Assembly: GCA_031268145.1 (NCBI GenBank)
Contig: JAIRXS010000021.1
Location: forward strand, 1-39,881
Source: Candidatus Endomicrobiellum siamense
GTDB taxonomy: Bacteria; Elusimicrobiota; Endomicrobiia; Endomicrobiales; Endomicrobiaceae
Direction: 5' to 3'
DNA length: 39,881 nt
Shown here: piece after piece, positions 14,831 through 33,946 of the stretch
Layout: each line of letters begins with the position of its first letter
Position numbering within the stretch: position 1 is the first letter of the stretch
The notes under the pieces: model-generated
What the model saw: only the letters and a program-made list of their open reading frames with translations
What the model was told of the DNA's origin: nothing
Databases searched by the model: none
Program-made: the position numbers and the translations under genes

Positions 14831-15550
14831 TTAATCCCTTGCAAGAGTCAAAACATAAACGTTCTTTGCTCCAGAGCGTTTTAATACACCAGCACAAACA
14901 GATACTGTTGAGCAAGTAGTGGCAATATCGTCAACTATCAAAATTGTTTTATTTTTTATTGTATTTTTATTTTTTATGGTAAAAGAGCTTTGTATATTCT
15001 TTTTCCTTTCAAATTTAGATAGCTTAAACTGAGGTTTTGTAACTTTTCCTCTTAATAAAACATTTTTTAACATAGGAATTCCTATATTAACTGAGACCTC
15101 TTGCGCCAACAGTTCCGCCTGATTATAACCTCTTTTTATTCTTCTAAAAATATTTAAAGGAACTGGTATAATAAAATCTGCAGTTCTTAAAAAGTTATAT
15201 TCTTTTATTAAATTACTCATCTCAAAAGCAAAATCTTTATATAAAAAAATTCTATTTGAATATTTAAATTTTAAAACTAATTTTCGTAAATTACCTTTGT
15301 ATAAATAAACTGCTCTCAATTTATCAAAACTATATGCTTTTAAATCTTTTTTACATACATAACATAAACTTTCTTCACTATCTAATGAAATACCGCATTT
15401 ATCACATATATTGCCTTTTATTTTGCTAAAAGATTCTTTGCATTTATCACAAACTTTATATTGTGATATAGCTTCCAAATCTTTGCCGCACAAACAACAA
15501 GTAATAGGATATATAAAATTAATTATTCTTAATAATATTTCTTTTATCAT
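14831..15550 (-). CDS. comF: ComF-family phosphoribosyltransferase-like protein
   Basis: A 239-residue protein with an N-terminal zinc-finger region: Cys pairs at about 18/21, 34/37, 49/52 and 63/66. A type I phosphoribosyltransferase fold follows, with the PRPP-binding loop ILIVDDIATTCSTV near residues 206-219 and the family motif RGYNQAELLAQ near 140-150. ComF-type proteins are linked to DNA uptake and processing in competent bacteria, but the family is widespread and its biochemical role is unsettled. It starts 10 bases after the stop of the giant SprA-like gene, so it is probably co-transcribed; that pairing may be fortuitous. Confidence 0.85.
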   Translation of the reverse strand: MIKEILLRIINFIYPITCCLCGKDLEAISQYKVCDKCKESFSKIKGNICDKCGISLDSEESLCYVCKKDLKAYSFDKLRAVYLYKGNLRKLVLKFKYSNRIFLYKDFAFEMSNLIKEYNFLRTADFIIPVPLNIFRRIKRGYNQAELLAQEVSVNIGIPMLKNVLLRGKVTKPQFKLSKFERKKNIQSSFTIKNKNTIKNKTILIVDDIATTCSTVSVCAGVLKRSGAKNVYVLTLARD

Positions 15551-15560
15551 TTTTTAAATA

Positions 15561-18500
15561 TTAAAATTGAAAAGTTAGCTTGCTTAAAGCAGAAATATCT
15601 TGATAATTTAAACTTTTGTTATATCTAAATTCAAATCTATCCCAAATAAGACCAAAAATAAATCTAAAATATTTTGATACTTCATAATCTGTATTTAATG
15701 AAACACCATAATTTGTATTATTATCTTTTTCTACATTAACATGAGACTGTTGGTCTATATATTTAAGATTAGAAGTAAAAATAATTCTATTTCTTAAAGG
15801 AATAAATATTTTTATAATTGGTATTTTTAATCCTCCTGGAAATAACGTATCCAAATTTATTTGCCCCAAATAAGTATTTTTGTTTACATTAGAAACATAC
15901 ATTCCATAAGCATTTTTTTGCCAATTATGCTCATTTTCATATCTTATAGAAAATCTCCATTTACCTAAATCAAAAGCTCCTTGACAAGCATATTTTTTGC
16001 CATTACCATTATAAAGTATGTTATAGGTAAGATAATCATTTTCTTGAGAATCTGTATTATCTAAAGCAAAATACAAATCAAAAAATCTTATAAATTTAAA
16101 TCTATATTCTAGACCACATAAAAGACTATCAGAATAAGATATTCCATAAGTTGTCATATGTTTATTTCTATACTTAGCATTTAACTGAGTATCACTTAGA
16201 AAATTTTCACCACGAAAGAGTTTTTCTGTTTTAGATACTCCTACAAGAATATCTGGCCAAGTTAAAGTGCATATATTGCGTCTTGTCCCTGTAATATATG
16301 AATTTTCATTTCCTTGCGTATAAGTATAATTAGTCGTAAAAGTATTCAAAGGTAAGAGATATCCTTTAAAAGAAAATATTTCAAAAGGCATGTATTTTCC
16401 AGAAAAACGAATATCGTCTTTATTTAAAATTGTTTTAACAATATAAGAATTACTGGAATAAAAAGGTTCCAAATCCATTAAAAGATTGTTTCTAACCCAA
16501 AGTTTGTCCATAACTAAACCCACAGATTTAAAATCTTTATCTACTTTATCGTAAGAATCAGAATCTTGTAGTCTATAATAAGTTGAAAAACTTAAACTTT
16601 TAACTAAGGCTACATCCGTAATATCGCGAGCATTTAAATTCCAAGAAACCTCACCAATACCGTTTCTCTCTATATATTTTTTTTGGCCTGGTATTGTTAA
16701 AGTCGCCTGCGATGTGCTTAAGTTTATATCATAATTTTCTTTTGTATTAATGCTATATATACAAGACGGACTAAACCAATTTATAAACCCTAAAACTAAA
16801 CTTGCTCCTACAGTTTGGTTTAAAGTTTTATCGTATTCAATTGATGTAGTAAAATCATTATTTTTCTCTTTTACCATGTTTAAGGTATAAGCTGGCAAGA
16901 AAGCAAGTCCATCAAAAAATTTAAAAGGTAATTTGAAAGCAAACATATTAGATTGTTCTAATGTATGATATTGATTAATAGCTAGGTATTCATTAATTTT
17001 ATCCAATCCTAAAAACGAGTCAGATTCCAGTATTGGAGTGGAAGGATAAACTCTATAATAAGAATTTATTGTTTTTACATTGGCATTAATATTTGTTGGC
17101 AACAAAAAAACTTTAATAGGATTGTTATAGATCATATCACCTGACAAAGTTTCTCTATCTTCTAATCGACTAATTTTAGAGGTATCTATAATAGACCTGT
17201 CATATTTTGCAGATATTTGTGGTAAATTTGTCCCTAAATTTAAATTAGTTTGAGTGTAACCAGTATAGGTTATTACTCTACCTTCTTCATTTAACGAAAT
17301 TAAATTAGATCTATTTTCTATTACTTCTGGCGTTATTGTACATATTCTTGAAATTCCTGTTTTAATAGGGAAAATGTTTATATCCTCTTTAGGTTTAAGA
17401 CCTTCCAAACTAATATATGCATCTTCTTCAATCAAGTCTCTATTATATACACCTGCTGCAAGATTTTGAAAATTCCTATTTATAGATTTTTTAGATCCCC
17501 CAACAGAAACTGCACCAAACCCAGATGTCCCATTCCACTTAACGTCACCTGCTGTTTTGTATGCTTTACCTACTATTTGTTTACTGCCAATTACGTGCAA
17601 TTCTTTAAACCAAAGCTGGTGATCACTCCCTACAGAATTTGACTTAACACCTAATACAAATTGAGAAATCCTATTTAACGACGGGTTTCCAACTATTGTT
17701 ATTTGACCTTCAGGTTCGGAGCTTACCCAAAAAGCATTTTTTCCAAAACCAGATTGATTAATTTTAATAACCTTCCAGTCCTGCCATGTAATATCATTAG
17801 TAATTACAGTTTTATACTCAAAATAATTGTTATCATTTCCACAAGCTCTAAATATTATTTCATCTCCTACTTGAGCAAAACCCAAAGCAGGCTTTGCATA
17901 AACCATAAAACATATACTGTCATATTTAGATATATCTAAGCTATCTCCAATATAAACGGCCTTTGCAAGTAAAGGCTCTTTTGTAATAAATGTATTATAA
18001 GAAAACTTTAAAGCATGTTCATCTTTTTTAACTTGTTCATTTATTCCATATAAATCTAAATAATATCTACTGGTTAGAATTGACTTGTATTCTTGATCGT
18101 ATCTTCCTATAGAAGAAATACTAAAATTATCTGTATTAAAACCTGTCTTTTCCCACTTATTTCCCACTATAGAAATCTTACCTATAACAATTTTACCGGT
18201 ATCTCCACCTGCATTTGTTTGTTTCATCCTGACACGTAAAATTCTTATATTTTTCCAATTTGCTCTACTTGCATCATTTATATTCAATGGAATTCTAACT
18301 TGTTTCCAACCGTTAGCGTTTTGTTTGATTATACTAATGCTTGAACTTGAAAGACTATAACTTCCTGCGACATCTTCTAAAATGTCTAATACGCCGTTAC
18401 CATTGAGATCTTCTGTGTCAAGCTTTCCATTATGAGCGCCTATCAAAGACTCTGTACCGTCAACATTATGAAATTTTCGTCCTGTGTCTTTCCAAGGACT

Positions 18501-20870
18501 TAAGATACCTGACCCATCAACATCTTCAGTATCTAAAACGCCACATCCATCAGAATCTTCATTAATACATGAAGCACAATCTATCACCATTTCATGCATA
18601 TTAGAAAAGTTATCTTTTATCCATACTTCAAGATATAATTTTTTAGAAAAGTCTACACCATCCCAATTTTGACAAATCTTTTGAGCAAAAGCTATTTGAC
18701 TTCTATACCTAACATCGTAATTTAATTCTAAAACCAATTGCTTTTGTCCGTCAACTAATTCTAAAGATGAGTCTATTTCTTTTATATCTATTTCATAACT
18801 ATTCCAAGATAAATCGCTTAACATTCTTCTTGTTGTAGGATATTTATCTGCACTGTGAAACCAGCTGTCTTCCAATAAAATAGCTAAATCTTCTCTAACA
18901 GAATTATCCATAGAATCTATTAAAGCTTTGTTTATAGTATTTTCATTATAAACACTTAAAGCATATTCAGCAGATGCATTAATCTGCATATTTAATGTAT
19001 CTACATTCAACCCATCAATTTTAAAGTCACCTTCACCTACACTAAGACTTGTAGGTGAATTTCTTATATCTGGCAAAACTGTACTTTTAGACATAAAATT
19101 ATGCAAGATACTTGCACCTATTGAAATATTTTCTGTAAGATTAAATTTACTACTTGCACCAAGAAGAATACTTTCTGCTTGCGCGCCTAGGAAAGAATAA
19201 TCATAAGATACATCTATTATAGAGTTTTCTTTAATTATATTTTCATTTTTTATCGTTAAAATACCTAAATCATAATCTAAAATATAATCTACGGCAGAAT
19301 TTAGAGTAACTCCATCAATAATAACTTTTTCAGATTTAGGAACAATATTTGGCCTTAACATTACTATTTTTACATTATATTGATACTCTGTTTCAAAATT
19401 ATATTTATGCTCATTAGTTAGGTATAAAGAATCATGCAAAGTTTCAGACAATCTAAAAATACCATTCTCAAAATCAACATCAATATTTGCAGCATACCCT
19501 GGTCTAGTAGGATATATCGGTACATCTTTGCCACCTTCAATAGTGTTAGGAATGTTGCCATTTAAATCTTTAATCGCAAGTAAAAAATTACCTCTTCCAT
19601 TGTCTCTTATTATTTTTAAATTACCTAAATTGTAAAAAGTTTTAATTTCCGTAGTGATGTTTTGAGTATCATTAATATCTTTAATAATCAAAGGGCTTAT
19701 TGAAAGAGACGTACCGTCTTCAAAATCATAATTTACGGCTACAACATCGCCTTTTGATATGGAGTTTTTAAAAATAAGCACCCCTGTATTATAGTCAACA
19801 GTAAAATCTTGTCCCGCAACAAGAAGAACAAAATTCCCTCTATAAGAAAAACCGCCTGTAGTATTTAGATCATAAAGAAGAGTATCTGAAGTAATAGAAA
19901 AATTATATTTTGGATTTAATTTTTGGTAAGCAATATATACTTTAACTGTTCCATTCCTTATTTTACGAACATCTCCATTTTTTAAAAGAGAATAATATTT
20001 TAATTTTATATAAGAGGTATCCGCTATTATTTTTCTTTCTAGCTGTGTGTTTCCTACAAATCGTTTAACTTCAGAAAGTCCTTTAGTTTTACTAAAAAAA
20101 GTATTAAGACCTAAATTTTTATAGCGAGCAGCAAGTTTTAATCCAAACAATTCTTTATTGTATCCTGTAAACTCTGTTGTTGGAAGAGATACTTCTATAT
20201 CACCAAACGCAGCTTGCTGTATAAATTCTTTGGGGCTACCTGTATAAACTAAAGATATATCTTTTTTTTCAGCCTTATCATCATAATCAATATTGACATT
20301 AAATCTATTGCCAATCCCTCCAATAACTTTCATCTGCATCTCTTGTTCCATTTTAAACATTGAAGAATTTTGCCGTTTGCCATCTTCTTGAGTATCATAA
20401 AGTCTTTGAGAATAATTAAAACCTATAAATTTTCTTCCTGTAATTGATAAGCTTGATTTAAATGGTAATTTTATTTTAGATAAAGAATCAGATGAAACAA
20501 GAACTGTATTTGAGCTGGAAGCAACAACATCTTTTAACTGCCAGCTATTTTGAGAGTATTTTATATTGCTGTTTCCTTTTTTTTCTAAATAATCTAAAAT
20601 TTCTTTCCCTGCAATTTCTTGAACAGACTCTGGTAATTCAATTTTGTTACTTGGCGAAAAATAATCTTCTGATATTATTGCTCCAGATGGTTCAATAGCA
20701 TCAATATTTTTAAATATATTGTATTTATCAAATTCAGTGTAAATTTCACCTTTATCAGTTCCAAGCACAGAACGATCATTTTTAATGTCCTCGGAATTTG
20801 CTATGTATGATAAAGCGATCAATAGACAAAATGTGAAAATAAAAAAATTAATTTTTTCTAAGAGTTTCAT
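15561..20870 (-). CDS. Giant SprA/Sov-like outer-membrane protein (type IX secretion translocon-like)
   Basis: A 1769-residue secreted protein with an N-terminal hydrophobic signal (about 7-25). Residues about 135-275 strongly recall the start of SprA: LSITGRKFIGFNYSQR, NIDYDDKAEKKD, YTGSPKEFIQQAAFGDIEVS, LFGLKLAARYKNL and TFFSKTKG. Long strings of amphipathic beta-strands follow, and residues about 765-830 carry acidic DTEDVDGSG and DTEDLNGNGVLD segments like those in SprA. The last 600 residues are more barrel strands, ending in aromatic LTFQF. SprA is the giant outer-membrane barrel through which type IX cargo leaves Bacteroidota cells; those proteins are usually above 2000 residues, so this is a compact version. 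It lies 6 bases after a PorV-like gene and after a gene with a T9SS-type C-terminal domain. The open frame is intact over 5.3 kb. Homology is by motif recognition; secretion function is inferred. Confidence 0.72.
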   Translation of the reverse strand: MKLLEKINFFIFTFCLLIALSYIANSEDIKNDRSVLGTDKGEIYTEFDKYNIFKNIDAIEPSGAIISEDYFSPSNKIELPESVQEIAGKEILDYLEKKGNSNIKYSQNSWQLKDVVASSSNTVLVSSDSLSKIKLPFKSSLSITGRKFIGFNYSQRLYDTQEDGKRQNSSMFKMEQEMQMKVIGGIGNRFNVNIDYDDKAEKKDISLVYTGSPKEFIQQAAFGDIEVSLPTTEFTGYNKELFGLKLAARYKNLGLNTFFSKTKGLSEVKRFVGNTQLERKIIADTSYIKLKYYSLLKNGDVRKIRNGTVKVYIAYQKLNPKYNFSITSDTLLYDLNTTGGFSYRGNFVLLVAGQDFTVDYNTGVLIFKNSISKGDVVAVNYDFEDGTSLSISPLIIKDINDTQNITTEIKTFYNLGNLKIIRDNGRGNFLLAIKDLNGNIPNTIEGGKDVPIYPTRPGYAANIDVDFENGIFRLSETLHDSLYLTNEHKYNFETEYQYNVKIVMLRPNIVPKSEKVIIDGVTLNSAVDYILDYDLGILTIKNENIIKENSIIDVSYDYSFLGAQAESILLGASSKFNLTENISIGASILHNFMSKSTVLPDIRNSPTSLSVGEGDFKIDGLNVDTLNMQINASAEYALSVYNENTINKALIDSMDNSVREDLAILLEDSWFHSADKYPTTRRMLSDLSWNSYEIDIKEIDSSLELVDGQKQLVLELNYDVRYRSQIAFAQKICQNWDGVDFSKKLYLEVWIKDNFSNMHEMVIDCASCINEDSDGCGVLDTEDVDGSGILSPWKDTGRKFHNVDGTESLIGAHNGKLDTEDLNGNGVLDILEDVAGSYSLSSSSISIIKQNANGWKQVRIPLNINDASRANWKNIRILRVRMKQTNAGGDTGKIVIGKISIVGNKWEKTGFNTDNFSISSIGRYDQEYKSILTSRYYLDLYGINEQVKKDEHALKFSYNTFITKEPLLAKAVYIGDSLDISKYDSICFMVYAKPALGFAQVGDEIIFRACGNDNNYFEYKTVITNDITWQDWKVIKINQSGFGKNAFWVSSEPEGQITIVGNPSLNRISQFVLGVKSNSVGSDHQLWFKELHVIGSKQIVGKAYKTAGDVKWNGTSGFGAVSVGGSKKSINRNFQNLAAGVYNRDLIEEDAYISLEGLKPKEDINIFPIKTGISRICTITPEVIENRSNLISLNEEGRVITYTGYTQTNLNLGTNLPQISAKYDRSIIDTSKISRLEDRETLSGDMIYNNPIKVFLLPTNINANVKTINSYYRVYPSTPILESDSFLGLDKINEYLAINQYHTLEQSNMFAFKLPFKFFDGLAFLPAYTLNMVKEKNNDFTTSIEYDKTLNQTVGASLVLGFINWFSPSCIYSINTKENYDINLSTSQATLTIPGQKKYIERNGIGEVSWNLNARDITDVALVKSLSFSTYYRLQDSDSYDKVDKDFKSVGLVMDKLWVRNNLLMDLEPFYSSNSYIVKTILNKDDIRFSGKYMPFEIFSFKGYLLPLNTFTTNYTYTQGNENSYITGTRRNICTLTWPDILVGVSKTEKLFRGENFLSDTQLNAKYRNKHMTTYGISYSDSLLCGLEYRFKFIRFFDLYFALDNTDSQENDYLTYNILYNGNGKKYACQGAFDLGKWRFSIRYENEHNWQKNAYGMYVSNVNKNTYLGQINLDTLFPGGLKIPIIKIFIPLRNRIIFTSNLKYIDQQSHVNVEKDNNTNYGVSLNTDYEVSKYFRFIFGLIWDRFEFRYNKSLNYQDISALSKLTFQF

Positions 20871-20876
20871 TTACAA

Positions 20877-22628
20877 TTACTCTAATTTATTCTTTGTAGT
20901 TTTATTCAAAGCAATCTTTGCTTTCTTATGATTTGGATTTAGTCTTAAAGCAAGTTCCCACATTCTACTTGCTTGATAATATTTACTTTGAGCATATAAA
21001 ACAAGTCCCTCTCTATATTTTTCGTCTGCAGTGACTTCATCGTACTTAATATCTTCTTCCAAAGAATTATTGTTAGTATTTGCTAACAACATATTATTTG
21101 ACAATTCAAAAACACATTTATTTATGTACTCTTTTGCTTTATTATAAATCTCTACTGATTTTGAAAAATTATTCTTACTTATAAGCTTTTTCAAAGATTC
21201 CATTTTTTTAATACAATACACCCATTGTTTTAAGTTATAAAATTCTATACCTTCTTTTAAAAGTTGCTGAGCTTTAAAAATTAATTCTTTTTCCATTTTT
21301 TCAAACTTTTGCAACTTTAAAATCGTATTTATTTTATCTTGATATTCCAAAACATCTGCTTTACCCCCACTAAAAGCTATATACTTTGTCCACTCTTGCA
21401 AAGCCTCTCTATAGTTCATATTATAATATTCGATATAAGCTTTTGCATAATATTTGTCAGCAAAATTAAGATTTTGATCTTTAGCGTTACTTCTCATCAA
21501 CTTAATAATCTCATTATAAAAATGATGTGAAGACTCAAAATTTTGGTAAGCAACAATAATTTTTGAAAGTTTATCTGTAGCTTTTAAATATTCCTTATTA
21601 CTATACAATTTCTTTGCTTTTTTAAATTCTTGTTGAGCTTTTTTTATAGAAGAGAGTTCTTCATTTAATACTTTTTTTGCCTCTTTTAATAAAGCGTCAG
21701 ATTTTTGACCCCATCTATATGTCAACATAAACCTATTTATCAAATCTATCTCGCTAAAATCTGCAGCGTAATCTATTGTAAACATATAAATATCTGCGCC
21801 TGCTCCAAATGTAATATGCCTACTATAATATCCGGTACGTAAAGCATACTTTTCTGCAAAAATATAAGATACTCCTACACAAAAATCAGCAAAAGAGTCT
21901 TCATGTTTTAAATCTACATAAACATTAAATGTATCCTTTGATGTAAATCTGTAGTATATCGGAAAAACAAAAGCAGAACTAACCCTATAAATTAAAGGAA
22001 TTTCATCATATTCAGAATCAAGTTTAAATTTATTTGAAATAAAATTTTGCATAGAAAAAGCAGTTTTTATTTTTATTTCATCTGTTAAAAAGATTTCTTT
22101 TGCAAGTCCGAAATCGCAAGAGTATGCAAAACCTTTTTTTAAATACATATCAAAATATAGATATTTAATGTTTAATCCATATGTAACAGCAAAACCTTCT
22201 AAAAAACCTGAAAAAGCAATAATATTATTCCAACTATTTACAGAAATACTTTCTTCTAACGAGTAAATAGTTTCTCTTACTTCAATATTGCCACTAGCCA
22301 AATTAGAAGCAGAAATCCCAAGAAAAAATCTTTTGCCCAAATTAAAAGCAAAACTAGCAGAATTATAAGAAGAACCTTCAAATAAGTTAAACCTAGAGAC
22401 AGATACGTAATTTCCATTAAACAAAGACATTAAAGATGGATTATATTGCAAAACTGATGGATCTCTATTAGCACAAAAAATAGTTTCTCCAGCTCCAAAG
22501 GCAACAACACTTGGCCCATGAGATAAAAAATGTTTTCTTCTGCCAGAGTATCCATACATTACTTCAGTTTGAATTACTAATAACAGAAATATAAAAAATA
22601 TTATTATTTTATTATAAGTATCCTGCAT
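20877..22628 (-). CDS. PorV/PorQ-like outer-membrane barrel with C-terminal TPR region
   Basis: A 583-residue protein with a signal peptide (about 8-27), then a FadL/PorV-type barrel to about 305. The family's opening pattern is present: a Gly-rich first strand (VVAFGAGE), an NRDPSVLQYNPSLM segment equivalent to the usual asn-pro plug motif, then regular strands such as FFLGISASNLASGNIEV. From about residue 315 it turns into charged helices with TPR-like repeats; the last, YREGLVLYAQSKYYQASRMW then ALRLNPNHKKA, is a clear TPR. In type IX systems PorV receives cargo from the SprA pore and hands it to the cell surface, and PorQ-type relatives do similar work. The start overlaps the upstream CTD gene by 25 bases. 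The barrel-TPR fusion is unusual; the TPR part could bind a periplasmic partner. Confidence 0.68.
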   Translation of the reverse strand: MQDTYNKIIIFFIFLLLVIQTEVMYGYSGRRKHFLSHGPSVVAFGAGETIFCANRDPSVLQYNPSLMSLFNGNYVSVSRFNLFEGSSYNSASFAFNLGKRFFLGISASNLASGNIEVRETIYSLEESISVNSWNNIIAFSGFLEGFAVTYGLNIKYLYFDMYLKKGFAYSCDFGLAKEIFLTDEIKIKTAFSMQNFISNKFKLDSEYDEIPLIYRVSSAFVFPIYYRFTSKDTFNVYVDLKHEDSFADFCVGVSYIFAEKYALRTGYYSRHITFGAGADIYMFTIDYAADFSEIDLINRFMLTYRWGQKSDALLKEAKKVLNEELSSIKKAQQEFKKAKKLYSNKEYLKATDKLSKIIVAYQNFESSHHFYNEIIKLMRSNAKDQNLNFADKYYAKAYIEYYNMNYREALQEWTKYIAFSGGKADVLEYQDKINTILKLQKFEKMEKELIFKAQQLLKEGIEFYNLKQWVYCIKKMESLKKLISKNNFSKSVEIYNKAKEYINKCVFELSNNMLLANTNNNSLEEDIKYDEVTADEKYREGLVLYAQSKYYQASRMWELALRLNPNHKKAKIALNKTTKNKLE

Positions 22629-23779
22629 CGTTCAGTCTCTGTTTTATCGTCGTATTTTTTAGTTAAAATCGCTATATAACTACCATTATAAAGAGTTCTT
22701 CCAGAATTATCTTTTCCATCATATTTTATATTCCCAGTAGAATTTCCATAAAAAAAAGATCTATCCGACTCCCAAACAAGATCACCATATTCAGAATAAA
22801 TATTTATTTGAGCAATACCATCCCCATGCATAGGAAAAACAAAGTCAGTCTCTGCACATAAAGAAGGATTAAACGGATTAGGCGCGTTATAAAACTTGTC
22901 CACCACCCCTCCTGTAAAAAAAGAAAACATCTCAGTTTCAAGAGATATTCCAAACTTATTTTTTATAACCATATACCAATAATATTTCTTTTTATGCTTA
23001 AGTTTTGACATGTTGTGTGATAAGCAGTTAATGTAAGGACTTTGTTCAATTTTTTTCAGTTCAGACTTGTTTGATTCAAGTCCTAAGTATAACTCATAAG
23101 ACAGTTTATCATCTTTTTCATCAGTATCTACATTCCAAGAAAAGCATATATTATCTGGAAATTCTTCAAATTCCGAACCTGGTAATTTTTTAATAAAATT
23201 ATAAGGTCTGCTAGTAACATGCCAACTTCCTTTTACCTCAAACAATTTGCTCTCATCATATTTATTTGTAGTTATGTACTTGTATTCATAACTACCTTTT
23301 TCTAATTTTAAAGTATGAGTATACAAAGCTTTATATTTATCTGTAAAACTACTTCGTATAGTCATTGAATATTCTTTAGTTGAATTGCCAGGAAACTTCA
23401 ACAAAATTTTTGGATACCCTTCTCGAGGAGCGTTGTTTACTATATCGTTGTGTATTACACTAAAAAAAACATCCTCTTCATCATAAATGGAAATGGATTC
23501 ATTCTGATGTTGTGGAGTTAAAAGTTGAAATTCTAAAGAAGGTTCATAATCAAACTCTTCAAAATACAAATTTGTAACCTCTATATACCTTCCATTAACC
23601 CCCGCAGATATTTTAGTACAAAAAGTGCAAAGAATACTGTCTACATGAAAAAAGTCACATGACATAAAGAAATTGTTGTAATTAGCAACTTGATTGTTTA
23701 AATTTCTAAAAAATGCTTCTGAGATTTTTGAAACAAAAATAAATAAAACAATGGATAGCAAATAAATAAAATTTTTCAT
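22604..23779 (-). CDS. Secreted protein with FN3-like domain and FlgD/T9SS-type C-terminal domain
   Basis: A 391-residue protein with a signal peptide (about 1-22), a beta-rich N-terminal region including a C-x2-C pair (LCTFC) near residues 51-55, and a fibronectin-III-like domain around 205-290 (ICFSWNVD, LSYELYLGLES, YYWYMVIKN). It ends in a FlgD-Ig/type IX sorting-like domain from about 293: NAPNPFNPS, then INIYSEYGDLVW, IKYDGKDNSGRTLYNGSY and a terminal basic strand (RCRILIIK). In Bacteroidota and related phyla this kind of C-terminal domain sends proteins to the type IX translocon, which fits the PorV-like and SprA-like genes immediately downstream. It could be a cargo or a fixed component. 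The same domain also occurs in proteins of phyla without proven type IX secretion. Confidence 0.65.
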   Translation of the reverse strand: MKNFIYLLSIVLFIFVSKISEAFFRNLNNQVANYNNFFMSCDFFHVDSILCTFCTKISAGVNGRYIEVTNLYFEEFDYEPSLEFQLLTPQHQNESISIYDEEDVFFSVIHNDIVNNAPREGYPKILLKFPGNSTKEYSMTIRSSFTDKYKALYTHTLKLEKGSYEYKYITTNKYDESKLFEVKGSWHVTSRPYNFIKKLPGSEFEEFPDNICFSWNVDTDEKDDKLSYELYLGLESNKSELKKIEQSPYINCLSHNMSKLKHKKKYYWYMVIKNKFGISLETEMFSFFTGGVVDKFYNAPNPFNPSLCAETDFVFPMHGDGIAQINIYSEYGDLVWESDRSFFYGNSTGNIKYDGKDNSGRTLYNGSYIAILTKKYDDKTETERCRILIIK

Positions 23780-23805: not shown

Positions 23806-25737
23806 TTAATTTAAAATTTTACTATCGTACCACTTATCTTTCACAGTCAAATCATAGATAACTTTTTCTATAGAGAATAGTAATTTCTCACTTTCTTGAA
23901 CTAATGGTTGTATATTATTTTTATAGTCGTAGCTAAAAATTTTATCATTATTTAACAAATAAATTTGTTCTCCTTCATAAGAAAGAAAAACAAATCTATT
24001 CTTTGTTTTAGAAAACAAACTTTTTCCTAAGGAAGAGTATGGAGTGTTTATGTTTAACACATCTATTATTGTAGGTATTACGTCAATCTGACTTGCAAGT
24101 TCAATATTTTTTTGAGGTTTAAACAATTTCGGACAATATATTATTGCTGGTATTTTAAATGTTTTATCTACTTTTGTTTTTTCTAAAAATCCGTTAACTC
24201 CGCCAACGCCATAAGCTTGATGATCAGCAAGCATTATAAAAATTGTCTTATCAAACCATTTTTCTTTTTTTGCTTTTTTAAAAAATCTGCCTAATGCATA
24301 GTCAGAATAATATAATCTGTTTAAATATCCAGTTTTTTCAGTACCATCTTCAGGATACTTTTCAAGAGATTTTAAAATTGTTTTTACATAAGGGATATGT
24401 GTAGTTGTAGTAAAATAAAATGCAAAAAATGGATTTTTTAATTCTTGGATTTTTTCCATAAAAAATTCCAATCCCTCTATATCATAGCCTTTGTTTATCT
24501 TTAAATAATCATGATAAATTGGAATATTTTGCTTACCATATGACTCTTTAAAACCCAAATAATTTGCTATTGCTATAGCATTGTCAGACTCTCTTTTATC
24601 GCCTTGAACAAACACATTATCATATCCATTTTTCTCTAATAAAGCAGGGAGTCTTGTTTGTCCACAATTTTCAAGGCCTTGTCCAAAATATAGCATACCT
24701 TTCACATAAGGGACACTTAAGAAAACTGACATCAATCCCATTATACTTCTTTGCCCATTAGCATAAAATTTGTCAAATACTATCGATTGAGCAGCAAGTT
24801 CATCAAAATTAGGTGTAACACCATACTTTGTCCCAGAAAAAAAATCTATATAATCTTTCTGCCAACTTTCAAGCAAAATAACCACAACACTATATCTACT
24901 CCCTAACACATTAAATTTAATTCTCTTTCTCATTAATGGATAATTTTGGTCTATAAAAACTTCTTCTCTTGCGTCTAAAAGATTATTTTTTACAATATCA
25001 AGCGCGCTTTGATAAGGAATATTTATCTTGTTTGGTATATTTCGCGAGCTTACACTTTTTAGAGAAGTAAAAACACCGTTTAGCTGCAACTCTCCAGAAA
25101 TTTTACTCTGATAATATGCATCTGTAATAGAAAGAATCCTTTCTTGAAAACCGCCTCTAGCAAAAACTACTAATATAAAACCTATTCCAAAAACTATAAA
25201 TAAATTTAAAACATTATTTTTCTTTAAGTAGCAATAATTTTTATTTACAAATTTAAATGAAAAGTAAAATAATACAACAGAAAATAATATGATTGTTAAA
25301 GTAACAAAAAAATAATCTTTAAAAGCTAAGCTAAAAAAATAGCTGAGATGATTTTTAACTAATAAAATTTCTGTAGTTAAATGCTTATTAAAAAATTTAA
25401 AATTAATTACATCGCCTGAAAGTAATAATATATTAATTAAAATAAAAATGTTTAGAAAAGAACAATTAATCTTTAAGAATTTTTTAGAATTTATAGGAAT
25501 ATTTATTAAAAATAAAAAAATTCCACAAGACACAGAAATCGCAAAAACGTCAAAACGGAACCCAAATAAGAAAGAATACAAAATTTCAAGATCAGATAAG
25601 TGGCTAAAAAACTTATAGTTTGCACACAACAAAGTAACTCTAAATACAAAAAAAACGGCAAGCAAAGTCAAAATGTATATAGCTGTTAATTGTAGCCTGA
25701 ACAAACTTTTATTATATTTGATCAATTTAACTTCCAA
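23806..25737 (-). CDS. LtaS-like alkaline-phosphatase-superfamily phosphotransferase (sulfatase fold)
   Basis: A 643-residue inner-membrane enzyme. About five membrane segments lie in residues 15-200, then a periplasmic sulfatase-fold domain: VVILLESW near 276-283 (metal-binding Glu), NGQRSIMG near 317-324 with a Ser in the nucleophile position that is Thr in Staphylococcus LtaS, and MLADHQ near 500 with the Asp-His metal ligands. The family moves phosphoglycerol or phosphoethanolamine onto envelope glycans or lipids. In a Gram-negative, LPS or periplasmic glycan decoration is more likely than lipoteichoic acid. It directly abuts the YdjC-type gene and precedes the CTD-protein gene by 26 bases. 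Substrate unknown. Confidence 0.8.
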   Translation of the reverse strand: MEVKLIKYNKSLFRLQLTAIYILTLLAVFFVFRVTLLCANYKFFSHLSDLEILYSFLFGFRFDVFAISVSCGIFLFLINIPINSKKFLKINCSFLNIFILINILLLSGDVINFKFFNKHLTTEILLVKNHLSYFFSLAFKDYFFVTLTIILFSVVLFYFSFKFVNKNYCYLKKNNVLNLFIVFGIGFILVVFARGGFQERILSITDAYYQSKISGELQLNGVFTSLKSVSSRNIPNKINIPYQSALDIVKNNLLDAREEVFIDQNYPLMRKRIKFNVLGSRYSVVVILLESWQKDYIDFFSGTKYGVTPNFDELAAQSIVFDKFYANGQRSIMGLMSVFLSVPYVKGMLYFGQGLENCGQTRLPALLEKNGYDNVFVQGDKRESDNAIAIANYLGFKESYGKQNIPIYHDYLKINKGYDIEGLEFFMEKIQELKNPFFAFYFTTTTHIPYVKTILKSLEKYPEDGTEKTGYLNRLYYSDYALGRFFKKAKKEKWFDKTIFIMLADHQAYGVGGVNGFLEKTKVDKTFKIPAIIYCPKLFKPQKNIELASQIDVIPTIIDVLNINTPYSSLGKSLFSKTKNRFVFLSYEGEQIYLLNNDKIFSYDYKNNIQPLVQESEKLLFSIEKVIYDLTVKDKWYDSKILN

Positions 25738-26436
25738 TTATTTTAGGTCTGCAAAAGAAATTATTTCTATATTTTTTTCTTCTATTTTTCTTTTAAGCTC
25801 AGGGTCTAAACACCTTGCAGTATCATATGTTCTCCAGATTTCTCTAAAACCGGGGTGCATCATAACTTCGCCTACTGCATAATCTGAATCCAAGTCAAAC
25901 TTGTCTATAAGAAAATAAGGATACTTTACACAGAAATGTTTCAAAATTGGAATTAAAACTTCTTTCTCTAAGTTCTTATAAAAAAATTTACTTTTATCAT
26001 AATATCCATTATAAAACCTTATAGGAACTTGTAACTCCTTAGCTTTAGCAACCACTATAGGCAAAACATCAGGATGCATATGAGCATGGTGATGACTATC
26101 TAAATGAGTTAAAGAAAAACCTGCTTTTAAAAATTTATCTACCTGTTTATTTATCTCATCTTTTATTTTGATTTCCATAGACTTAGTAATTTTTACAAGT
26201 CTTTTATAAAATCGGTTTTGTTCTTTCATCATAAATATATAATCTAAATCTATATGAAGACCTGTTTTTAAAGTAGGATTTTCTTTGATAAGCTTACACG
26301 CCAAACCAAAAGCATGCCTATAAACCATAATAGTTGTAGATGAAAGTATGCCATACTTATGAGCTATTATAGTGGCATTTGTATTTTCTACATTTCTCCC
26401 AAAATCATCTGCATTAACTATAAGTCTTTTTTTCAT
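25738..26436 (-). CDS. YdjC/ChbG/HpnK-family carbohydrate deacetylase
   Basis: A 232-residue metal-dependent deacetylase-like protein. Seen: NADDFG at residues 8-13 with the metal-binding Asp pair, GLHIDL near 59-64, and THLDSHHHAHMHP near 113-125 with the metal-ligand histidines. Known relatives remove acetyl groups from N-acetylated sugars (chitooligosaccharide, or the hopanoid glycan HpnK branch). Between a GT2 gene and an LtaS-like phosphotransferase gene, it probably edits a surface glycan during synthesis. It ends exactly where the next gene begins, so expression is coupled. The specific sugar cannot be determined. Confidence 0.85.
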   Translation of the reverse strand: MKKRLIVNADDFGRNVENTNATIIAHKYGILSSTTIMVYRHAFGLACKLIKENPTLKTGLHIDLDYIFMMKEQNRFYKRLVKITKSMEIKIKDEINKQVDKFLKAGFSLTHLDSHHHAHMHPDVLPIVVAKAKELQVPIRFYNGYYDKSKFFYKNLEKEVLIPILKHFCVKYPYFLIDKFDLDSDYAVGEVMMHPGFREIWRTYDTARCLDPELKRKIEEKNIEIISFADLK

Positions 26437-26460
26437 ATAAAATAACTCCCTTTCCCTTGT

Positions 26461-27300
26461 TTAGTTGCTAAAAGGGTACAAGCTAGAATAAATTTTTTTT
26501 AATCTTTTTATAAGTTTATTTTGCATAAAGTGTTTATGAGGCTGATGAAACATAAAACCACATCTTTTATATTTGTCTTTAAATAGAAGATATTTTATCA
26601 TTTCAGACTGGCGTTTTATAACAATAGGCATAATTTCATTAATTATTTTTTTATTAAAGTCTGATATAGGAACAAAATTTGAAGAAAAATCTATAGATTT
26701 TTCACTACAATTTTGCCCATCAAACCCTATATGCTGAACGTAGCTGTTTTTTGCCACTAGGAGCCTAACACATTTTTTGATTAAAAAAGATGACAACTTA
26801 AAATCCATAGAGCGCGGCGCAACTTTTTGTTTTAACACAAAACTTTTAAGTAAGTCTTTTGACACGCATATTCCAGCAAAACCAACATCTTGCTTATATA
26901 CATATTCCCCGTCAAAATAAATATCTCTATGAAGATCAGAGTTATACATGCTTAAAAAACCATCAGTCTTTTTAAATGCAGAATATATATATTTGATTGT
27001 ATCTGGTCTTAATAAGAGATCTGAATCGCAAATAAATAAAACATCATTATTTGTATTTAAAAAATCAAGCATAATTTGATAATTATTTCTATCTGCTCTT
27101 AAGTTTTTAGGTCTAGTAACAATATCTGCATTTAAGCCTGCAAAAGCCTGTCTTAAGTAAATTTCATCAAATTCCGTGCTGGAATCATTAAACACTCTGA
27201 TAAAAGTTTTATCAAGATCATCGCACTCTTTTAAAGATTTAAGCATTATTTCAAGATATTTTTTTCTATTATAAACTGGAATTGCAATCATCAACTTCAT
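26461..27300 (-). CDS. Glycosyltransferase family 2
   Basis: A 279-residue GT-A fold glycosyltransferase. MIAIPVYNRKKYLEIMLKS opens the nucleotide-binding half, NDSS near residue 38 follows, and CDSDLLL near 91-97 is the metal-binding D-x-D. No membrane segment is seen, so it is cytoplasmic or peripheral. It starts 8 bases after the upstream GT9 gene ends and is followed by a deacetylase gene 24 bases on. The set looks like a glycan-assembly module; donor and acceptor are unknown. Confidence 0.8.
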   Translation of the reverse strand: MKLMIAIPVYNRKKYLEIMLKSLKECDDLDKTFIRVFNDSSTEFDEIYLRQAFAGLNADIVTRPKNLRADRNNYQIMLDFLNTNNDVLFICDSDLLLRPDTIKYIYSAFKKTDGFLSMYNSDLHRDIYFDGEYVYKQDVGFAGICVSKDLLKSFVLKQKVAPRSMDFKLSSFLIKKCVRLLVAKNSYVQHIGFDGQNCSEKSIDFSSNFVPISDFNKKIINEIMPIVIKRQSEMIKYLLFKDKYKRCGFMFHQPHKHFMQNKLIKRLKKIYSSLYPFSN

Positions 27301-27308
27301 AAAAACCT

Positions 27309-28415
27309 CTATAATAGCTTTTCTACTGCATTTAAAATGTCATTATTAGATATATTTTCTATATCATTTTCTGTCCCACTTTTAATATTTAAAGATATAC
27401 TAATAGCATTTTTATTATTAGGTCCCCAAATTACATTTATTTTTTCTGATATTTTTGAATAATCTAAATACAAAGCAACTGTCTTTTTATTAAAAGCAGA
27501 CGCTATATGCACTATAGAAGTGTCAGGAGTAATAATAATATCAGAGTATCTTATTAAACTAGCGCTGCTTAAAATGGAGTTGAATGAACAAATAAAAATT
27601 TTATTATTTTTTAAAGCATGCAATTTTTTCCTATTTTTTTTATTACAAATTACAAAAATACTACAATCAAATTTTTTCTCTAAATCAGAAATTAAAGATT
27701 GCAACTTATTAAATGAAAAACTTCTATGTTTGCTCGCTGCAAAAGGATTTAAAACTATATTATACCTTGTGGTAGACTTTTTTAATAATTCCTTTGCTGT
27801 GTTATCTTCTAAATCGCTAGTAAACACATCATAATTTAAATTTTGATTATCAATTTTGAAAAATTTTAAAACATATTCATAGCGTTTTGTAATATGTTCA
27901 TTAAAAAAATCTTTATCTATTGATAAATCATAAATATTATATAAATTTTTATAAAAACCTATTAAAACATTAACAGCAACAATACGTAAAATAAGCATAG
28001 GTATAAAGCAAAGTCCGAAAGTATAAAAATCTATGCCTAAAGAAATGTGTTGTCTTCGTAAATTAATATATACTGGCAAATCTCTTAAAAAATTGCCGCT
28101 TATTATATAAGTTAAATCAACATTTTTATTATACTTTAAAATCTCCGCATTATTTTTACCACACAAAACTATAATTTTAATATCAGGATAATGTTTTTTT
28201 ATTTCTCTAAAAATTAATGTAGAAATAACCATATCGCCAATTTTATCGTCATTTCTGAAAACCAAAATTGATTTAATATTCTTAGCATCAAAATCAAATA
28301 TATTAGATTTTCTATATTTTTTATCTAAAATCTTTTTTGCAATATTCTTGCGCAAAGACTTTATCTGTTGCTTAACATAGCGGATCATTAACTCTATATC
28401 CTTGTTTTGCTTCAT
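27309..28415 (-). CDS. Glycosyltransferase family 9
   Basis: A 368-residue heptosyltransferase-family enzyme. A basic N-terminal extension of about 45 residues precedes the family opening IKSILVFRNDDKIGDMVIST, near residues 47-66. VLNPFAASKHRSFS and ITPDTSIVHIASAFNKKTVALY in the C-terminal half form the donor site. The ATG at 28415 has no obvious ribosome site; an in-frame ATG at 28388, preceded by an AGGA/AGAG-rich stretch, is an alternative start that shortens the protein by nine residues. It follows metK by 18 bases and precedes a GT2 gene. It probably adds heptose or a related sugar to core or O-chain. Confidence 0.8.
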   Translation of the reverse strand: MKQNKDIELMIRYVKQQIKSLRKNIAKKILDKKYRKSNIFDFDAKNIKSILVFRNDDKIGDMVISTLIFREIKKHYPDIKIIVLCGKNNAEILKYNKNVDLTYIISGNFLRDLPVYINLRRQHISLGIDFYTFGLCFIPMLILRIVAVNVLIGFYKNLYNIYDLSIDKDFFNEHITKRYEYVLKFFKIDNQNLNYDVFTSDLEDNTAKELLKKSTTRYNIVLNPFAASKHRSFSFNKLQSLISDLEKKFDCSIFVICNKKNRKKLHALKNNKIFICSFNSILSSASLIRYSDIIITPDTSIVHIASAFNKKTVALYLDYSKISEKINVIWGPNNKNAISISLNIKSGTENDIENISNNDILNAVEKLL

Positions 28416-28433
28416 GCTTAGGCAAACTATACT

Positions 28434-29597
28434 TTACTGGTCAATATATTTATGAAATTCTTCAACTTTATTTAAATTTTCCCAAGGAAACTCGTTCCTG
28501 CCAAAGTGCCCATAAGAGGCTGTTTTAGCAAAAATAGGTTTGTGAAGCTGCAAATATTCTGCAATGCCCCTTGGAGCAAGAGGAAAGATTTTTCTAACAA
28601 CAGGTTCTATTTTAAATCCAGGAATTTTACCACTACGATGTGTATCTACCATAACTGAAACAGGTTCTTTTACACCAATAGCATAAGCAAGTTGAACAGT
28701 ACACTTTTGTGCAAAACCAGCAGCTACTATATTTTTTGCTATATGCCTTGCCATATAACAAGCACTTCTGTCAACTTTTGTAGAATCTTTTCCAGAAAAA
28801 GCACCGCCACCATGAGCAGCCATTGCACCATAAGTGTCTACTATTATTTTCCTTCCTGTGAGCCCAGTATCAGCTGCAGGTCCGCCAATAATAAATTTTC
28901 CAGTAGGATTTATATAAATCTTAGTACTTTCATCTATTAATTTACCTAAAATCGGCTCTATAACATAATCAAAAATTTCTTTTTTTGCTTTTTCTATTAT
29001 ATGCTTACCAGTTTTATCTAAAATTGTTTCGGTGTGTTGAGTAGACAAAACAACTGCACTTATCCTTTTTGCCTTCCAATTAGTGTACTCTACAGTAACT
29101 TGAGTTTTACCATCTGGTCCTAAATAGGGCAAAATATTTTTTTTTCTGACATGAGCAAGTCTCATGGAAAGTTTATGAGCTAAAGTTATGGGAAGAGGCA
29201 TGAGCTCCGGAGTTTCTTGACAAGCAAACCCTATCATTAAACCTTGATCTCCTGCCCCTCCATTGTCAACTCCCATGGCAATTTCAGGAGATTGGGTGTT
29301 TATCGTGTCCATTATTGCGCACGTGTGATAATCAAATCCAAACGAAGATCTATCATAACCTATCTTTTTTATTGCACCCTTTATAATTTCTCTTGTATTA
29401 ATTTTTGCCGTTGTTGTAATTTCTCCTCCGACAATAAGAAGACCTTTAGATATAAAAGTTTCACATGCTACTCTAGCTTTTGAATCTTGTTCTAAAATAG
29501 CATCTAAAATAGTGTCTGAGACTATGTCACACACTTTATCCGGATGTCCTTCCGTAACAGATTCAGATGTAAACAAATAACCACTTTGATTTGCCAT
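28434..29597 (-). CDS. metK: S-adenosylmethionine synthetase
   Basis: Makes S-adenosylmethionine from ATP and methionine in the cytoplasm. The 387-residue length is standard. Seen: TEGHPDKVCD near residues 14-23, NGGAGDQGLMIGFACQ near 111-126 and the signature GGGAFSGKDSTKVDRSACYM in the C-terminal third. A strong AGGGGAC ribosome site precedes the ATG at 29597. It is flanked on both sides by sugar-nucleotide and glycosyltransferase genes, so it seems carried inside an envelope operon. Confidence 0.97.
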   Translation of the reverse strand: MANQSGYLFTSESVTEGHPDKVCDIVSDTILDAILEQDSKARVACETFISKGLLIVGGEITTTAKINTREIIKGAIKKIGYDRSSFGFDYHTCAIMDTINTQSPEIAMGVDNGGAGDQGLMIGFACQETPELMPLPITLAHKLSMRLAHVRKKNILPYLGPDGKTQVTVEYTNWKAKRISAVVLSTQHTETILDKTGKHIIEKAKKEIFDYVIEPILGKLIDESTKIYINPTGKFIIGGPAADTGLTGRKIIVDTYGAMAAHGGGAFSGKDSTKVDRSACYMARHIAKNIVAAGFAQKCTVQLAYAIGVKEPVSVMVDTHRSGKIPGFKIEPVVRKIFPLAPRGIAEYLQLHKPIFAKTASYGHFGRNEFPWENLNKVEEFHKYIDQ

Positions 29598-29622
29598 AAA
29601 GTCCCCTTATAACAGAAAATTT

Positions 29623-30660
29623 TTATGCTATTACAGTTTTTTCTTCCATTATTATTGAATCAAATAACGTTATTTGATTTGTAATTAATATATTACTACC
29701 AACAATCGTGTTTATTAGTTTTACATTTTCACCTATTTTTGCAGCTTCCCAAATTACAGCTTTTTCTATTAAACTATTTTCACCTATTTTAACATTACTT
29801 GATATGACACTATAAGGTTTTATATTTGCTCCTGCCTTTATTACAACTTTATCTCCAATATAACAAGGTCCTTGTATTTTAGCAGTTTTATCTATTTTAG
29901 CACTTGAAGATATATACTTATCACCTGAGTTTTTATCAATATCTAAGTCTATTTTAACTTTGCCATCTAAAACATCAAAAATGCCTTTTTTATATTCAAA
30001 TATATTTCCAATATCAGTCCAATATTCGTCCATACAATATCCGTAAATTTTTTCTCTTTTTTGCATTAAAAGAGGAAACAAATCTTTACTAAAATCAAAA
30101 AACTTATCTTTTGGTATAAAATCAAAAATTCTAGGTTCAAATATATAAATGCCTGTGTTTACTTCGTCATTAAAAACATCTCCCCAATACGGTTTTTCCA
30201 CAAAAGATTTAATTTGTCCTGTTTTATCTGTTACAGCTATACCATATTCAAACCTTAAATCTATTTTTTTTAACACTATAGTTGCAATAGATTTTTTTTG
30301 TCTATGAAATTCTAAAGCTTTTTTAAGATTAATATCAGTTAAACCATCACCAGACATGACAACAAAAGTCTCGTCAAAAAAAGATTCGTTTTTTTTAATA
30401 GCGCCTGCAGTACCTAAAAGCTTTTGTTCGTGAGAAAATTTTAAATCTATGCCAAGTTTATTATTTTTAAAATAGTTTGTTATAACTTCACTGCGATAAT
30501 GCACGTTTACACAAGCACTATTAAAACCATATTTTAAAAGATGCAAGAATGTATAATATAAAGCTGGTTTGCCTAAAATAGGAACCATTGTCTTAGGAAC
30601 ATCTGTAGTAAGAGGTCTAAGCCTTGTGCCAATCCCAGCAGCTAAAACAAAAGCTTTCAT
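29623..30660 (-). CDS. Sugar-1-phosphate nucleotidyltransferase with left-handed beta-helix tail
   Basis: A 345-residue enzyme that activates a sugar phosphate to an NDP-sugar. The N-terminal AAGIGTRLRPLTTDVPKTMVP is the Rossmann-like NTP-binding loop; VMSGDGLTDI near residues 98-107 carries the metal Asp, and FVEKP near 152-156 is a family motif. From about 250, hexapeptide repeats of Ile/Val-rich steps (IQGPCYIGDKVVIKAGANI) form a left-handed beta-helix. This resembles mannose-1-phosphate guanylyltransferase or HddC-type heptose activators. The latter is attractive given five GT9 domains nearby, but this is inference. It overlaps the epimerase gene by 4 bases. Confidence 0.82.
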   Translation of the reverse strand: MKAFVLAAGIGTRLRPLTTDVPKTMVPILGKPALYYTFLHLLKYGFNSACVNVHYRSEVITNYFKNNKLGIDLKFSHEQKLLGTAGAIKKNESFFDETFVVMSGDGLTDINLKKALEFHRQKKSIATIVLKKIDLRFEYGIAVTDKTGQIKSFVEKPYWGDVFNDEVNTGIYIFEPRIFDFIPKDKFFDFSKDLFPLLMQKREKIYGYCMDEYWTDIGNIFEYKKGIFDVLDGKVKIDLDIDKNSGDKYISSSAKIDKTAKIQGPCYIGDKVVIKAGANIKPYSVISSNVKIGENSLIEKAVIWEAAKIGENVKLINTIVGSNILITNQITLFDSIIMEEKTVIA

Positions 30661-31586
30661 TTGTTTAAAGCCTCCTTAAAATAGTCCATAGTAATTTTTA
30701 TACCTTTATCCAAACTAATCTTAGGGGTCCAACCTAAAATTTTTTTTGCTTTATTGATATTTAAAAAGCTTTTAAATAACTCACCATCTCTTTTGGGTCT
30801 ACGTATAGCTTTCTTTTTATATCCGTTAACTTTGCTCATAAGATCTACTAGTTTATTAACAGAAGTAGGTTTAGCTGTGCCTATATTTATAATTTCATTC
30901 TTACCATTTGCTAAAGATCTAATATTTGCATCTACAGCGTCAGAAACAAAAACATAGTCTCTTATTTGTTTGCCGTCTCCAAAAACTATAATTTCTTTAT
31001 TTTTAAGCATTCTCTGTGCAAATATTGCAACTACGCCTGCTTCGCCATGAGGGTCTTGCCTTGGTCCAAAAACATTTCCATATCTTAAAATTGTGTATTC
31101 TAAACCATATATCTGAGAATAAAATTTTATATAGTTTTCCACTGAGTTTTTTGCAATACCATATGGAGAAAGAGGACTTGGCATTGAGTTTTCTTTCGGA
31201 GCTACAGATTTACATTCTCCATAAATAGTGCCTCCTGAAGAAGCAAAAATAATTTTCTTAGCTTTTGTTTGCACACATGCACTAAGAATATTAATTGAAC
31301 CTAAAATATTTACATTTACATCAAAAATAGGATCTGTAATAGACTTTCTTACATCAATTTGCGCTGCATGATGTATTACAGCCTGAGGTTTTTCTTGTTT
31401 AAATATATTTATAACTTTTTTTTGATCACAAATATCTGCCTTATAGAATTTAGCTTTTTTATTTACATTTTCCTTTCTTCCAGAAGACAAGTTATCTAAA
31501 ACAATAACTGAATACTCCTTTTCAATTAAAGTATCTACAATATTAGAACCTATAAAACCTGCTCCGCCTGTTACTAAAATTTTCAT
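30657..31586 (-). CDS. NAD-dependent sugar-nucleotide epimerase/dehydratase (extended SDR)
   Basis: A 309-residue extended short-chain dehydrogenase. Seen: TGGAGFIGS near residues 6-14 for NAD binding, SSGGTIYG near 116-123, the catalytic Tyr142-x3-Lys146 in PYGIAK, and RYGNVFGPRQDP downstream. This matches UDP-glucose/UDP-GlcNAc 4-epimerase-like enzymes, but ADP- or GDP-sugar epimerases look alike. It overlaps neighbours by 4 bases on each side (GT9 upstream, nucleotidyltransferase downstream), so the three are translated together and should feed the same glycan. Confidence 0.87.
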   Translation of the reverse strand: MKILVTGGAGFIGSNIVDTLIEKEYSVIVLDNLSSGRKENVNKKAKFYKADICDQKKVINIFKQEKPQAVIHHAAQIDVRKSITDPIFDVNVNILGSINILSACVQTKAKKIIFASSGGTIYGECKSVAPKENSMPSPLSPYGIAKNSVENYIKFYSQIYGLEYTILRYGNVFGPRQDPHGEAGVVAIFAQRMLKNKEIIVFGDGKQIRDYVFVSDAVDANIRSLANGKNEIINIGTAKPTSVNKLVDLMSKVNGYKKKAIRRPKRDGELFKSFLNINKAKKILGWTPKISLDKGIKITMDYFKEALNK

Positions 31587-33858: not shown

Positions 33859-33946
33859 ACTTCCTCCAAAGGTATATAACATATAATTTTTTAAAATTAT
33901 ACATTAAACTATCAATGTCTATTTTATATTAATTATTTTAAATCGA

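Follow-up and report, generated by a model that had tools for sequence, protein, structure and literature searches.

Does a protein export system of the kind known as the type IX secretion system (T9SS) exist outside the Bacteroidota? The question is raised by three adjacent genes in a 39,881-nucleotide stretch of DNA from Candidatus Endomicrobiellum siamense, a member of the Elusimicrobiota (contig JAIRXS010000021.1, positions 1 to 39,881). We call this whole stretch the window; it is contig C39 of a source genome (G000) of 1.26 Mb in 47 contigs, 94.9% complete. In the available text of the sources concerned, the T9SS is called exclusive to Bacteroidota (PMC12618676), is placed in the FCB (Fibrobacteres-Chlorobi-Bacteroidetes) superphylum (PMC11205867), or is held to be possible in other FCB phyla and absent from the remaining bacterial phyla (PMC11285876), and a 2016 survey (PMC4793230) detected it in 60 of 97 Bacteroidetes genomes, with no occurrence in any other clade. 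We describe here a SprA-like protein, a PorV-like protein and a third, secreted protein whose C-terminal domain (CTD) is of the T9SS/FlgD type and propose, from sequence comparison and structure models, that together they probably constitute a type 9-like protein export core of translocon, shuttle and cargo outside the Bacteroidota.

Organization of the three genes

15561..20870, minus strand: predicted SprA/Sov-type outer-membrane translocon, 1769 aa, with a signal-peptide-like start and F as its C-terminal residue
20877..22628, minus strand: predicted PorV-family outer-membrane barrel, 583 aa, candidate shuttle, with the barrel at residues ~33-303 and a C-terminal TPR region
22604..23779, minus strand: secreted 391-aa protein, a candidate cargo or anchored partner; it has weak Ig-like matches and ends in a T9SS/FlgD-type CTD that matches the CTD model
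22607..22891, minus strand: CTD region of the 391-aa protein, from the CTD model and hhalign

The three genes are co-directional and are read from the CTD protein (23779-22604) through the PorV-like protein (22628-20877) to the SprA-like protein (20870-15561), with a 25-bp overlap between the first two and a gap of 6 bp between the last two, exactly the arrangement of consecutive overlapping or near-touching genes given in the first-pass annotation of this DNA. The overlap is identical in all six loci with the compact trio (window included), the gene order is kept in all six, and the overlap and short gap suggest coupled expression. Pairwise comparison of the window with the five other trio loci gives ratios of nonsynonymous to synonymous substitution (dN/dS) of 0.12-0.14 for the SprA-like gene, 0.17-0.20 for the PorV-like gene and 0.15-0.23 for the CTD protein gene; these are the values expected under purifying selection, in line with the earlier suggestion that the trio is selected. 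A hydrophobic stretch lies near the N-terminus of each trio protein. The same holds for 43 of 47 complete CTD open reading frames (ORFs) and for 50 of the 53 PorV ORFs that are complete; the measure is crude, however, and 519 of 1104 other ORFs have such a stretch as well.

The SprA-like protein

The 1769-residue protein matches the SprA model TIGR04189 at E 4.9e-36 (123.5 bits), a model matched by all 15 of the SprA-like members compared. A profile of SprA-like relatives (A1, 15 rows) has Flavobacterium SprA as its sole match in the PDB (E 4.3e-30, three collinear stretches); the alignment profile was required, and a search with the single 1769-aa sequence gave a chance-level match only. AlphaFold models were made as two overlapping 1200-residue pieces of the 1769 aa. 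Each aligns with SprA over ~1000 residues, the other barrels listed align over only ~200-410 residues, and in these two-piece models the fold is shared with SprA along the chain. Significant similarity to SprA, on which the SprA-like designation in the first-pass annotation turned, is thus present both in the profiles and in the structure models of the two pieces. The C-terminal residue is F in 83 of 86 SprA-like ORFs, a count in which some genomes appear twice. In the control genomes, the SprA model gave one match, in Thermus composti, at a lax threshold of 1 and zero at 0.001.

When named genome contigs were scanned, 216 relatives of the SprA-like protein came up. Of the best 80, 78 carry titles of Elusimicrobiota groups and the other two (L133 and L136) the bare title bacterium. 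Endomicrobium and Candidatus Endomicrobiellum are the closest, in agreement with the Elusimicrobiota origin proposed from the sequence. One Endomicrobium metagenome-assembled genome (L132) has its sprA-like gene broken into four ORFs and apparently decaying. L084 and L086 have large ORFs upstream of sprA, none of which matches the SprA-like model.

The PorV-like protein and the C-terminal domain

The 583-aa protein matches the PorV model NF033709 at E 2.6e-16, with 60.1 bits against a cut-off of 90, and two other places in the same genome reach 103.4 and 90.6 bits. A profile built from PorV proteins of relatives and of the window's own genome (12 in all) finds F. johnsoniae PorV (6h3i_F) in the PDB at E 1.1e-31, the next match being TodX at 7.8e-06, and hhalign places the window's PorV clade on this profile with 97.8% probability over residues 25-287, which is the barrel. 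The PorV-like assignment of the first-pass annotation therefore stands on both the model and the profile. Searching the PDB with the single sequence found TPR proteins only, and the protein has a weak TPR match of its own (TPR_1, 0.0062, residues 535-567). In a tree from which sequences of less than half coverage were dropped, the window's PorV does not group with the sprA-linked PorV proteins of other families, and the trio may therefore be a fresh association.

Taken alone, the window's CTD is weak (CHU_C 0.0075, FlgD_ig 0.16, FlgD model 0.31), the CHU_C score being 16.8 bits against a cut-off of 27; another CTD protein from this genome, of 487 aa, scores 34.1 bits with PF18962, above the cut-off of 27. 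A CTD model seeded solely from other families of the class finds the window's domain at E 2.2e-6 among 1356 ORFs, with a match that extends to the last residue, and hhalign aligns it with a 17-protein CTD profile at 98.2% probability, confirming the FlgD/T9SS-type domain of the earlier description. In the PDB this 17-protein profile is closest to PorZ (5m11, 2.3e-11), followed by FlgD (4.9e-05), and also finds the translocon-caught CTDs 8glk_D (0.0028) and 8glj_D (0.055) and residues 1060-1153 of the 1156 of PorU (6za2, 0.012). Because FlgD and T9SS CTDs look alike, such a match alone would not prove export, although the absence of flagellar machinery from genomes of this phylum, as stated in the available text of PMC11257099, speaks against a flagellar origin of the domain.

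Distribution and pairing of the components

A SprA-like gene was found in 180 of 198 genomes of the phylum with completeness of at least 80%, mostly as one match per genome, and in 150 of the 157 with at least 90% completeness and at most 5% contamination. All 18 misses fall in the window's family, 11 in its own genus and seven in other genera. Among 40 genomes (the window's and 39 relatives), PorV was found in 27 and CTDs in 26; matches per genome run from 8 to at least 41 for PorV and from 7 to 78 for CTDs outside the genus, and from 0 to 8 for each inside it. In the window's genome the PorV model matches six times, at five loci, and there are eight CTD matches. The first-pass annotation had described a three-gene system, and while its three parts are confirmed, the system is larger than the trio: PorV and CTD matches number from several to dozens per genome.

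Within the genus the three parts come and go together. In raw counts over 24 same-genus genomes, not corrected for shared ancestry and with one genome (G019) scored as SprA-positive on a fragment, PorV is present in 10/10 genomes with SprA and 1/14 without (p 5.6e-6), and a CTD in 9/10 and 1/14, respectively (p 7.2e-5); at completeness of at least 75% the corresponding figures are 8/8 and 1/9 for PorV and 7/8 and 1/9 for CTDs. The compact trio that had been proposed as the unit occurs in a single clade only (6 tips, support 1.0).

PorV genes are also paired with CTD genes. In 20 regions from seven related genomes, picked from the PorV list ahead of any CTD search, 23 of 26 PorV ORFs have a direct same-strand neighbour that ends in a CTD, compared with 5 of 96 other ORFs (Fisher 5e-17). 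The seeds of the CTD model, chosen by C-terminal motif and not position, came from ORFs of the same regions, which may favour CTDs there. One of the three unpaired PorV ORFs is at a region edge. In the window and 20 sprA regions, 8 of 11 PorV ORFs are paired with a CTD gene against a background of 3/260. A CTD gene is close to PorV at three of the five PorV loci of the window's genome, which include two PorV-CTD pairs away from the trio; the CTD protein of one of these is an S8 subtilase, 455 bp from its PorV gene. The PorV model missed PorV in L027, L073, L075 and L104 (those compared are 73-74% identical to the window's), and the PorV counts for pairing and for sprA neighbourhoods are therefore too low. 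Because PorV genes pair with CTD genes, one shared translocon appears to serve many dedicated shuttle-cargo pairs.

Gene order around sprA

14831..15550, minus strand: ComF-family gene directly downstream of sprA (TIGR00201, 1e-34)
L035:13992-15635 and L123:3642-5417: examples of a CTD-bearing M6 metallopeptidase, its gene often adjacent to PorV, near lptG-lptF and sprA in many relatives

We compared the neighbourhoods of sprA in the window and the best 80 of 216 named loci. LptF/LptG is directly upstream of sprA in 43 of 67 sources that have an upstream neighbour (the Pfam LptF_LptG assignment was confirmed in L024 and L035), and ComF is directly downstream in 54 of 70 that have a downstream neighbour. 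Of the 48 loci that hold five genes, 20 have a PorV or CTD gene among the five upstream of sprA. In many relatives lptG-lptF and sprA-comF point away from each other, and PorV and a gene for an M6 peptidase with a CTD often lie beyond. The compact trio is a derived arrangement of a single six-member Endomicrobiellum clade, in which PorV, not lptF/lptG, adjoins sprA.

Among 24 sprA loci with a PorV or CTD gene (trio loci and L089, L093 and L129 aside), 20 of 21 CTD ORFs contain HExxH, or 15 of 16 when doubly fetched genomes are counted once, and Pfam Peptidase_M6 is found in 10 of the 11 distinct sprA-linked CTD proteins that were compared with Pfam, the eleventh being a kelch protein without HExxH, downstream of sprA. 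The window clade has no M6 peptidase gene at the locus and carries the 391-aa protein instead, in which no peptidase is recognised. By analogy, the M6-CTD metallopeptidase of the relatives could take the role of the PorU sortase.

Upstream of the trio and on the same strand is a surface-polysaccharide-like gene run (23806-35248) that includes an LTA-synthase-like (lipoteichoic acid) sulfatase, YdjC, one family 2 and two family 9 glycosyltransferases (GT2, GT9), and a nucleotide-sugar epimerase and dehydrogenase, with RecA and S-adenosylmethionine synthetase interspersed. It is largely kept in L027, L028 and L029 within reach of those sequences; in L104 the gene upstream of the trio is of 308 aa only. 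The run could be the source of a glycan anchor.

Weighing the proposed export core

Several results weigh against the proposed export core. The 123.5 bits of the window's SprA-like protein fall short of the curated TIGR04189 cut-off of 200, which is exceeded nowhere in the 40 genomes (separate pieces being scored apart). Pfam gives no SprA model for any of the 15 SprA-like members, and ten of these also match a phage tail-tube model (best 9.7e-07). The structural alignment with SprA has a large root-mean-square deviation (6.6-10.4), with predicted template modelling (pTM) scores of 0.61 and 0.53. A PDB search with a five-row profile built from the window's own PorV clade did not recover PorV. 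Two same-genus genomes are exceptions to joint presence: G012 keeps SprA and PorV with no CTD match, and G017 has four PorV matches, one CTD match and SprA only as three partial matches. The divergent lptF/lptG beside sprA would also fit a role in envelope building. Finally, the 40 genomes gave no credible GldL, GldM or GldN motor or PorU peptidase part in searches that had no T9SS positive control, and an intact T9SS is unsupported.

The last point bears on a different explanation, that these bacteria have a complete T9SS whose GldKLMN-type motor and PorU sortase are too divergent for the models used. SprA itself was detected only below its cut-off, so short membrane proteins like GldL could escape; GldK was not searched for, and the GldN model matched none of the 40 genomes and none of the controls and is uninformative by itself. 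However, the GldL model, with a best E of 0.002 and nothing above the cut-off in the 40 genomes, still matches 9 of 14 controls, and GldM matches 2/40 at E 0.05 and 0.1, none above the cut-off, and 2/14 controls. These searches leave the motor as doubtful as the first-pass annotation had held it to be. The PorU model matches in 23 of 40 genomes (at most ~14 candidates per genome being scored) and in 5 of 14 controls, but the matches listed all lie at positions 836-1094 of 1095, mostly in the last hundred. Their position fits PorU's own CTD, the CTD profile matching the corresponding end of 6za2. Overall, we regard a complete but divergent T9SS as rather unlikely. Some PorU-model (CTD) matches are in very long open frames (G035:C1:132138-132428, 19358 residues; G029:C31:31009-31302, 17970 residues; G027:C6:90200-90490, 17343 residues), and a PorV gene is a few kb from the last of these (L176).

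Quite doubtful is the proposal that the release motor is the TolQ-TolR-TonB/TolA complex. It draws on the single MotA_ExbB match of the window's genome, the sole proton channel of the MotA/ExbB type found there, which sits in a TolR-TolQ-TonB cluster, and on a 909-aa TPR protein in the corresponding cluster of G026 that matches PorW/SprE at 2.9e-33, below the cut-off. Yet the complex does not co-occur with SprA in the genus (7/10 versus 11/14, p 0.67), and the MotA/ExbB family gives no match in G008 (94% complete), although that genome has matches for SprA, PorV and CTDs. The clusters themselves differ: in the window's genome (L167:8817-15564, on G000:C9), TolR-TolQ-TonB is followed by two further proteins, one of 692 aa that matches no family and one of 973 aa that has an autotransporter domain, and in G026 (L173) TonB, TolB, the TPR protein, TolQ and TolR form one run. 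We considered the 909-aa protein as a SprE and rejected it, YbgF and BamD models matching it better, and its would-be equivalent in the window's genome, the 973-aa neighbour, carries the autotransporter domain instead.

That the SprA-like protein is an envelope-building barrel, delivering lipopolysaccharide for example, with PorV and CTD proteins as mere neighbours sharing no common pathway, is very unlikely: the lptF/lptG association and the reported absence of LptD from all Endomicrobiaceae (available text of PMC11257099) favour it, but the protein matches SprA in sequence and in fold over ~1000 residues of each modelled piece, against ~200-410 residues for other barrels, PorV and CTD genes are present or absent together with sprA, and it is PorV that lies beside sprA in the window clade.

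Comparison with known systems and a possible mechanism

The proposed export core resembles the Bacteroidota T9SS (F. johnsoniae structures 6h3i, 6h3j, 8gl6 and 8gl8) in the sequence and fold of its SprA-like protein over most of the chain, in its PorV-family barrels, and in a CTD that matches PorZ, PorU and cargo CTDs. It differs in phylum, in the unrecognised GldL, GldM, GldN and PorU peptidase part, in mostly having a single SprA match alongside PorV matches that number from several to dozens, and in a SprA of 1769 aa rather than 2403. PorU is a C25 peptidase. The exported CTD-bearing peptidase that sequence comparison places beside PorV near sprA in relatives would parallel the PorU/PorV attachment partners, although it is an M6 metallopeptidase and is not part of the window's trio. 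Type B systems, as described in the available text of PMC12618676, likewise have dedicated shuttles whose genes are directly beside those of their cargo, but those shuttles are PorP/SprF-like, and it is Type A cargo that depends on PorV; the paired shuttles here are of the PorV family. The window's CTD could be of either type, the CTD profile being closest to PorZ and FlgD and the best T9SS domain match of the window's own CTD being to CHU_C.

By homology with F. johnsoniae, all three proteins would cross the inner membrane via Sec, and the SprA-like protein would form a giant barrel with a lateral gate at which a PorV-type shuttle docks. Inside the pore the cargo CTD would bind loops of the shuttle, and the shuttle-cargo complex would leave laterally for the cell surface. 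There the shuttle may retain its cargo. In F. johnsoniae, loading of cargo onto SprA-PorV is energy-free and removal of the loaded shuttle requires the motor, according to the available text of PMC10994853, which also describes Type B carriers as anchoring their substrates. Because GldL, GldM and GldN are not recognised here, release might either use an unrecognised motor or be cheap through single use of each shuttle with its own cargo. The many cargo genes with a PorV of their own would suit one-way shuttles that stay with the cargo at the surface, as Type B carriers do. We suggest tentatively, as a possibility that we hold at somewhat less than even, that the Elusimicrobiota have a separate, long-diverged type 9 branch with one SprA, many cargo-paired PorV shuttles, an M6 peptidase for the PorU sortase and no GldLM motor, release coming from another source or a one-way shuttle.

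The system is not described in the available text of the Elusimicrobiota literature covered (PMC7031533, PMC12204202, PMC8542988 and PMC8857248), a coverage that excluded preprints and most subscription papers. The main study of the genus Endomicrobiellum, available in part, reports genome reduction with partial loss of envelope functions, and the words secretion and type IX do not occur in its main text (PMC11257099); TXSScan predictions in the available text of PMC12483993 give a T9SS for a Bacteroidales symbiont and report none for Endomicrobiellum mixotrichae. A SprA-PorV-CTD core that extends across the sampled Elusimicrobiota, and is missing in many reduced endosymbiont genomes, would change the picture of a system restricted to Bacteroidota or the FCB group. 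It would offer a natural comparison for what the GldLM motor contributes, and it points to how many surface proteins, very large ones included, may leave the cell in these bacteria.
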